The notes beneath the pieces are model-generated. The model had not been told where the DNA came from, ran no database searches, and saw nothing but the letters and a program-made list of their open reading frames with translations. A program made the translations under genes and the position numbers. DNA of 20,448 bases from a virus: IMG/VR virus record IMGVR_UViG_3300042542_001929, positions 1 through 20,448 of that record, one strand, 5' to 3'. Below, in pieces: positions 8,582 to 9,492 of this stretch; the first letter of the stretch is position 1, and each line of letters begins with the position of its first letter.

Positions 8582-9492
8582 TGGACGACAACTTCCACGA
8601 TCTGCGCAGCGGCCAAGGCCATAGCGATGCCCAGGGCCCGGCCGCCGCTGCGCACCTTCTCCCCGACGGCCAAGCCGGTCTCGACACGCATGGCACCCAC
8701 GCCGTCGGGGACACTTTCGGCGGCCAGCCACCGACGGCCATAGTAGCGACGGCAACCATTCCAGACTCGCCGTCGGATGGCTGGCTGGAACTTCGCACGT
8801 TCGCCGAGCTGTACGAGGACACCCAGCGGACCCGTATCGCCTCGGTGAACCGTGTCCGCGCGACCGGGCGGCCAGAGATGTTCGCCAAGCACATCGAGGC
8901 GATGGAGCGCACCGAGCACGAATGCTCGCTGATGCTGGCCCGCTGCTACCGCCGGGTCGTGCCCGCTGCGATCCGGCAATGGCAGCAGGACACACCCGGC
9001 ATCGGTGAAGCCCTGCTGGCCCGCCTGCTCGGCCACCTCGGCCATCCGGTGCTCGCTATGCCGCACCACTGGCAAGGCAAAGGCACCGACCGGCAGCTTG
9101 TCGCCGATGTGCCCTGCGAGCGCACCGTGTCGCAATTGTGGCAGTACTGCGGCCACGGCGACCCCGCCCGGCGCATTGCCAAGGGCATGAGCGCCGAGGA
9201 CCTGGCAGCGATCGGGTCGCCACGGCTGAAGATGCTGGTGCACCTCAATGCCGAGGCGTGCATGAAGTGCGTCGGCACCACTCGCTCGCGCCGCTCGCCA
9301 TACCGAGACGTGTACGAGGCTCGACGACTGGTGACCGCTGACCGGGTGCACGCTGCACCGTGCGTGCGGTGCGGGCCGAGCGGCAGACCCGCCGCCGAAG
9401 GATCGCCGTGGTCGGCTGCGCACCAGCACGCCGACGCCCTGCGGATCGTCGGCAAGGAGATCCTGCGGGACCTGTGGCGGGTGAGTCGGTGA
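8581..9492 (+). CDS. Tas-like protein (Nop / IS110 C-terminal-like domain), no nuclease domain seen
   Basis: 303 residues from ATG 8581 (GTG 8578 is adjacent and in frame). Residues 8-68 are encoded by array 2, and no ATG/GTG/TTG lies in frame between the array and the domain start near residue 70. A helical segment (LELRTFAELYEDTQRTRIASVNRV...) leads to DTPGIGEALLARLLGHLGHP (137-156), a PGIG helix-hairpin-helix-like motif as in IS116/IS110/IS902 C-terminal domains. Then come TVSQLWQYCGHG (182-193) and GSPRLKMLVHLNAEACMKC (212-230), the region equivalent to the Nop-like RNA-binding surface. The C-terminus has SPYRDVYEARR, C261-x2-C264 and a helix ending LRDLW. No RuvC or HNH triad is visible, so an RNA-guided DNA binder rather than a cutter is inferred. 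Alternative: domesticated IS110-type transposase fragment. Confidence 0.68.
   Translation: MDDNFHDLRSGQGHSDAQGPAAAAHLLPDGQAGLDTHGTHAVGDTFGGQPPTAIVATATIPDSPSDGWLELRTFAELYEDTQRTRIASVNRVRATGRPEMFAKHIEAMERTEHECSLMLARCYRRVVPAAIRQWQQDTPGIGEALLARLLGHLGHPVLAMPHHWQGKGTDRQLVADVPCERTVSQLWQYCGHGDPARRIAKGMSAEDLAAIGSPRLKMLVHLNAEACMKCVGTTRSRRSPYRDVYEARRLVTADRVHAAPCVRCGPSGRPAAEGSPWSAAHQHADALRIVGKEILRDLWRVSR
8603..8784 (+). repeat. TIGR-like guide array 2: three hairpin units inside the tas-like reading frame
   Basis: Unit 5 has stem A arms at 8603-8613 and 8644-8654. Unit 6 has stem B arms at 8660-8670 and 8701-8711. Unit 7 has a third, different stem (CCAGCCACCGACGGC at 8724-8738 with GCCGTCGG, a bulged A, and TGGCTGG at 8769-8784). 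All three loops are 30 bases. Central 9-mers are CGATGCCCA (8625-8633), CGACACGCA (8682-8690) and CGGCAACCA (8750-8758). Nine-base variable segments flank each. The different stem of unit 7 with pairing retained argues for selection on structure. The whole array is open in the tas-like frame, giving peptides such as DGQAGLDTH. Confidence 0.7.

Follow-up and report, generated by a model that had tools for sequence, protein, structure and literature searches.

What kind of element is the hairpin at positions 8724-8784 of the viral sequence IMGVR_UViG_3300042542_001929, an IMG/VR record analysed here over its whole 20,448 nucleotides (the window)? A sequence-only reading had singled it out as a third stem sequence, with pairing kept, among a group of hairpins sharing a 30-base loop, and had argued for selection on an RNA or cruciform structure. 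The analysis described here leads, with high confidence, to the proposal that the window carries a stem-loop-type TIGR-TasA system of a phage, in which this hairpin (unit 7) would be one of seven guides; the host of the phage is probably an actinobacterium. TIGR-Tas, an RNA-guided DNA-binding system, was first described in 2025 (Faure et al. 2025, PMC12045711).

The coordinates and fold of unit 7 were confirmed. Its left arm (8724-8738, CCAGCCACCGACGGC) and right arm (8769-8784, GCCGTCGGATGGCTGG), both on the plus strand like all the units described here, form a stem of 8 + 7 bp, CCAGCCACCGACGGC/GCCGTCGG(A)TGGCTGG, with one bulged A in the right arm, around a 30-nucleotide loop (8739-8768) whose core is CGGCAACCA. 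The predicted folding energy is -30.8 kcal/mol (z -5.2 versus dinucleotide shuffles). The other six units have perfect 11-bp stems and 30-nucleotide loops, and two stem sequences alternate among them. Stem A is found in units 1 (7872..7923, spacers GACGATGCT / GAGGGGTCA), 3 (7995..8046, TGTGTCGAG / AGTTGCCAA) and 5 (8603..8654, AGGCCATAG / GGGCCCGGC), and stem B in units 2 (7929..7980, TGCCGCTTC / CTGATGGCG), 4 (8052..8103, ATTCGTGCT / TTTCAGGAT) and 6 (8660..8711, AGCCGGTCT / TGGCACCCA). Units 1-4 make up array 1 and units 5-7 array 2. Stems A and B differ at four pairs, all four of them compensated. Unit 7 is not a fully independent stem, as its inner 8 bp (CCGACGGC/GCCGTCGG) are shared with stem B and new sequence is confined to the outer 7 bp and the bulge. 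Because of this sharing the covariation inside the window is modest, and the decisive covariation comes from other genomes.

The loop, the length of which had been correctly given, proved to hold two features that the sequence-only reading had overlooked, along with the adjoining Tas gene: two 9-nucleotide guides and, between them, a second box C/D motif. Each unit is made, in order, of the stem, box C (CCA), the 9-nucleotide spacer A, a loop repeat of the form CG-NNNN-CCA, the 9-nucleotide spacer B, box D (CG) and the stem again, with CG...CCA present both in the edge and in the loop. In unit 7 these are spacer A TAGTAGCGA, loop repeat CGGCAACCA and spacer B TTCCAGACT. The stem-loop TIGR arrays already published, with box C/D motifs and 9-nucleotide spacers, have the same anatomy, and Faure et al. 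(2025, PMC12045711) attribute the CG...CCA pseudosymmetry of edge and loop to the symmetry of the Tas dimer. The hairpins are therefore best read as guide units of such an array, a reading that, taken as a whole, we consider highly probable.

How widespread is this type of unit? The exact A-B linker was found in no IMG/VR record besides that of the window, and a blastn search of 8100-9500 against phages gave no match. The loop framework alone (GGCCA-N9-CGACACCCA-N9-CGCC), however, retrieved 40 other IMG/VR stretches, most of which differ in stem sequence, with stems of up to 13 bp. This search used no protein information, and it was only afterwards that about half of the 40 stretches, mainly those with long stems, were seen to encode a tas homologue (E down to 1e-85). 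A clustering of units around tas was seen in ten whole records (for instance at 84.6-85.5 kb of a 103-kb record), none of which contains dispersed copies away from it. Inside the window, when up to 3 mismatches are allowed, the framework pattern has 8 matches where 0.14 would be expected, and a covariance model trained without any window sequence recovered the seven units with E values from 6e-10 to 1.3e-4, unit 7 being the weakest with 29.5 bits; a covariance model that left unit 7 outside its training set scored it at 32.7 bits. A rule-based caller found 192 units in the loci and only 2 in reversed sequence, and 170 of the 192 have the exact 9-9-9 geometry with CCA...CG...CCA...CG. No Rfam family reached its gathering score; a match to mir-343 on the other strand was rejected as chance. 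Outside the array, a weak covariance-model match on the minus strand at 5455-5496 (20.9 bits, E 0.009) is probably also due to chance. In one unit of the cluster-A mycobacteriophages (locus L046, 5720-5800, and its equivalents) an 18-nucleotide loop repeat with a small hairpin of its own, e.g., CGGC-AACTC-GCCG, replaces the tetraloop.

The other genomes made it possible to ask whether the pairing of the stems is maintained. The covariation set was drawn from tas-bearing loci, and its units were picked by the box C/D motif and the spacing, a closing C-G being the only stem criterion. In the resulting 150 distinct stems the edge repeat is replaced by a palindromic but variable sequence, pairs 2-9 form in 84-96% of cases, compared with roughly 40-75% when the right arms are shuffled, and all four Watson-Crick types are represented at each of these pairs. 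This covariation test on homologous units, which the sequence-only reading had proposed, thus found pairing kept through many base-pair types, and it strongly confirmed that stem pairing is under selection. As to the nature of the selected structure, 157 of the 162 units found in tas loci share the sense strand of tas and the remaining 5 are antisense, and G-U makes up 36 of the 89 non-Watson-Crick cells at pairs 2-6, about twice an equal-frequency expectation that ignores base composition. This sense bias and the tolerated G-U pairs favour RNA over a DNA cruciform, so that only the first half of the initial "RNA or cruciform" stands. The perfect palindromes, their clustering and the replication or recombination genes adjoining several loci would also suit cruciforms or iterons recognised as DNA, in a replication origin, packaging or recombination site, where a protein would bind the loop core. 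Such an explanation would account neither for the strand bias and the G-U pairs, nor for units that accompany tas in unrelated gene contexts (the 103-kb record included), nor for 9-nucleotide spacers that are hypervariable in pairs, and we regard it as very improbable.

A second line of evidence came from the protein encoded at 8578..9492 on the plus strand, whose conserved domain begins at 8803. When a profile built from 22 relatives was compared with all PDB sequences, it retrieved only TasR (9mty, 1.5e-19) and TasH (21kl, 9.8e-17), and the alignment was restricted to the Nop part, corresponding to TasR residues 120-291, after the RuvC part. The predicted structure, with a predicted local distance difference test (pLDDT) score of 93.7, matched the folds of TasH (Z 17.3), TasR (Z 17.2) and the IS110-family recombinase IS621 (Z 12), while the next, unrelated match had a Z of 4.9. 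No RuvC or HNH nuclease domain was found at the N-terminus, only the Nop part being alignable, and the 304-residue open reading frame (ORF) contains no Pfam domain. Because both profile and fold match TasR and TasH over the Nop part and without a RuvC domain, the protein is identified, on these predictions, as TasA, that is, a Tas protein devoid of nuclease.

The same protein matches the PHROGs family phrog_4285, labelled "transposase", and GenBank records name its relatives likewise. This label, together with the in-frame insertion of units into coding sequence, could suggest a mobile hairpin repeat, similar to repetitive extragenic palindromes (REP) or miniature inverted-repeat transposable elements (MITE), inserted in frame into phage genes and mobilised by its neighbour. 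The window protein, however, lacks the DEDD/RuvC catalytic domain of an IS110 transposase, its TasR alignment starts at residue 120, past the RuvC part, and the units are arranged in tandem with no single bridge RNA. Moreover, the stems vary between phages while the loop boxes are constant, and the ten whole records mentioned above have no dispersed copies, all of which leaves this explanation with hardly any weight.

A third line of evidence is the behaviour of the spacers among close relatives. A tblastn search with the Tas protein retrieved 83-84 phage records. Of these, 76 belong to Mycobacterium phages, for which M. smegmatis was the isolation host in nearly every case. Spacers were compared in 13 cluster-A mycobacteriophage loci, where tas is 96.8% identical on average, and two units were followed in detail. 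Their stems are 93-100% identical and their spacers 35-43%, with 7 and 10 spacer alleles, respectively; the alleles of spacers A and B occur in fixed pairs, and the units are combined differently between phages. Spacer pairs thus appear to change rapidly while the stem behaves as a fixed cassette, which is the behaviour expected of guides tracking changing targets, and the alternating stems A and B of the window fit this picture. The earlier statement that the units are not a simple copied repeat consequently holds for the spacers, which are replaced, but not for the stems, which are copied within a phage. Two further loci deserve mention in their own right: the IMG/VR record 638276483 (110,865 bp; loci L028, L039 and L045) has a Tas locus with at least 7 units, and that of Arthrobacter phage Talia1610 (L054, 3270-3970) has Tas and a relative of the gene preceding it in the window, with no units recognised by the strict caller; possible units are visible there by eye, and the boxes of the array may have diverged.

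Where, then, do the guides lie with respect to the gene of their own effector? Directly before tas, the window contains a conserved gene (8132..8581, plus strand) with a product of 149 residues, for which we coin the name tasX. The start of tas, GTG at 8578 or ATG at 8581, overlaps the tasX stop, and the next in-frame ATG, GTG or TTG is found only at 8845, already within the conserved domain. As there is no later start before that position, units 5, 6 and 7 lie within the tas coding sequence, unless a CTG is used. Between the tasX stop and the tas domain the tas frame is open in 14 of 28 loci, compared with 4 in each of the other frames; in 13 of these 14 a start codon sits over the tasX stop as ATGA or GTGA, 4 nucleotides before the end of the stop, and most of these 13 hold units in the intervening stretch. 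In addition, loci L016, L021, L027, L033 and others show in-frame insertions of units, which are thereby translated, at a single site of the Nop domain, after LWxYCG. Other members, the cluster-A mycobacteriophages among them, have their array between genes, ahead of the tas start. Gene structure hence indicates that in about half of the loci, including the window, the units fall in the translated 5' part of tas or form in-frame insertions in the Nop domain. There is weak evidence for translation of a frame through units 1-4 (7857..8135, plus strand), which joins the upstream gene by a GTGA overlap and tasX by an ATGA overlap; the case is weaker because a second frame is also open over array 1. 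These open frames, and the overlap of the tas start with the tasX stop, could suggest that the repeats are retained because of their peptide product (N-terminal Tas repeats of DTQ/DTH type), the hairpins being a by-product. Yet the same units occupy intergenic DNA in mycobacteriophages and other loci, where stops interrupt the tas frame, the core of unit 7 is read in a different phase from that of unit 6, and it is the pairing itself that covaries, so that this possibility seems scarcely credible.

The product of tasX is considered a new candidate component of the system. In about 30 loci, some of them in phages of Mycobacterium, Gordonia, Rhodococcus and Arthrobacter, a relative of this product is encoded immediately before tas, and some of these relatives match phrog_4604, of unknown function. 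The model is helical and of high confidence (pLDDT 91). Comparison with the PDB by sequence and fold gave no convincing match, the helical matches at Z up to 5 not being meaningful, and no Pfam family above cut-off and no likeness to ParB were seen, although a distant likeness is possible. The only partner in the main text of Faure et al. (2025, PMC12045711) is ParB-like (TasParB) and occurs in dual-repeat loci.

From these elements a working model can be drawn. Array 1, tasX and tasA, with array 2 in the 5' coding part of the latter, would be transcribed as one operon RNA, and each hairpin would be released as a tigRNA in which two box C/D pairs (CG...CCA) enclose the two 9-nucleotide spacers. 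One guide would then be bound by a dimer of TasA, as it is by the solved TasR and TasH, and this dimer would recognise duplex DNA. According to the published rule, the targets lie on opposite strands with a 0-2 bp gap, and cleavage leaves 8-nucleotide 3' overhangs (Faure et al. 2025, PMC12045711); from these overhangs we derived the order spacer A, N0-2 and reverse complement of spacer B on the target strand. Given that TasA has no nuclease domain, binding would most likely bend or block the DNA rather than cut it. Tas has been shown to be required for guide maturation in the case of TasR, in a dual-repeat system (Faure et al. 2025, PMC12045711), and, with guides in the tas coding sequence, guide release would be expected to cut the tas message, suggesting negative feedback. 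We put forward only tentatively, and as rather doubtful in its entirety, a self-limiting system in which making guides destroys the effector mRNA, whole spacer pairs are swapped between constant stems, and tasX is an unrecognised second component acting in guide maturation or spacer exchange.

Several observations weigh against the proposed stem-loop TIGR-TasA system. The target searches covered exact matches of a few spacer pairs and did not exhaustively cover mismatched or gapped targets. Self or near-self targets showed no excess over decoys in the analysed loci. Seven cluster-A spacer pairs had no exact contiguous match in about 50,000 INPHARED phage records (an 18-mer control was found in 189 of them). 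In IMG/VR, the target of window unit 7 had no match and that of unit 4 had 5 (decoy, 1), in contigs of 27-59% GC that, set against the 68% of the window, were taken as chance. One spacer pair shared by mycobacteriophages had 53 matches spread over unrelated genomes, none Mycobacterium by title, which is chance level; it also matched 6 viral contigs. To this must be added that box C of unit 1 is CTA instead of CCA, that the work on TasH and TasR used arrays of other types, and that published tests of a stem-loop TasA array are limited to a single locus (Faure et al. 2025, PMC12045711).

As no target was found, the role is inferred. Silencing, whether of host genes or as a means of competing with other elements, is our leading proposal, to which we would give slightly less than an even chance. 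The guides of the same system might instead be directed at the genome of the phage itself or assist its integrase, as has been speculated in print for nuclease-less TasA, and some loci do lie in temperate-phage regions near repressor or RDF (recombination directionality factor) genes. This alternative is unlikely, though it deserves serious attention: the self-target searches just described speak against it, and fast turnover of paired spacers between constant stems points to a changing target.

The remaining neighbours were also considered. An exonuclease-like gene (9489..11072, plus strand; phrog_298) follows tasA with a GTGA overlap, and the phrog_298 exonuclease is labelled "Cas4 exonuclease" in several cluster-A phage records. 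An exonuclease gene directly follows tas in the window and in several mycobacteriophages (e.g., L047, 3678-4481), but not in most other loci, where the gene after tas may encode a terminase, primase/helicase, RecT or RusA. Because this gene differs between loci, a Cas4-like role in adaptation was set aside, and the exonuclease is probably replication or recombination cargo of the phage module, outside the system. Elsewhere, an ORF at 6613-7290 contains about 16 tandem 12-bp repeats encoding alternating RDAA/WDAA-type units, possibly a helical repeat protein, and an Ala-rich ORF at 11575-12342, downstream of the TIGR operon, has degenerate tandem repeats (AANAYA units) and encodes a second repeat protein.

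Most known TIGR-Tas loci are metagenomic. In part for this reason, we know of no answer to the questions of the natural target, the role of TasA and the way in which spacers are gained. Here the stem-loop type is traced to about 76 records of Mycobacterium phages, almost all of which were isolated on M. smegmatis. As near-identical phages among them differ in their spacers, the role, the target and the turnover of spacers can be tested in a phage-host pair that is common in the laboratory. An effector whose reading frame contains its own guides would, if true, be an unusual gene arrangement. This arrangement, tasX and the cluster-A spacer turnover are absent from the main text of Faure et al. 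(2025, PMC12045711), to which the comparison was confined, the supplement lying outside it, so that priority is uncertain.

Compared with known systems, the closest is the TIGR-TasA stem-loop array of a Peromyscus gut contig (Faure et al. 2025, PMC12045711), which, like some published arrays and the window, has a loop repeat of fixed length; the window differs in having units in the translated tas ORF, tasX and alternating stems A and B, none of which is reported in the main text. With the dual-repeat TIGR-TasR and TasH systems (9mty, 21kl) the window shares the Nop sequence and fold (Z about 17), paired spacers of 8-9 nucleotides and "CG/UG...CCA" boxes in edge and loop alike, whereas its TasA lacks RuvC or HNH and a variable stem of about 11 bp replaces the edge repeat. 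IS621 with its bridge RNA (8wt6) resembles it in a Nop-like RNA-binding domain (Z 12) and in split guides reading two DNA strands; unlike it, the window protein has no DEDD/RuvC catalytic domain and is accompanied by many short guides, not one bridge RNA. Finally, CRISPR arrays also combine clustered guides, hypervariable spacers and an adjoining effector, but in the present system the spacers are split into 9 + 9 nucleotides, the stems vary between phages and no Cas effector was seen alongside.
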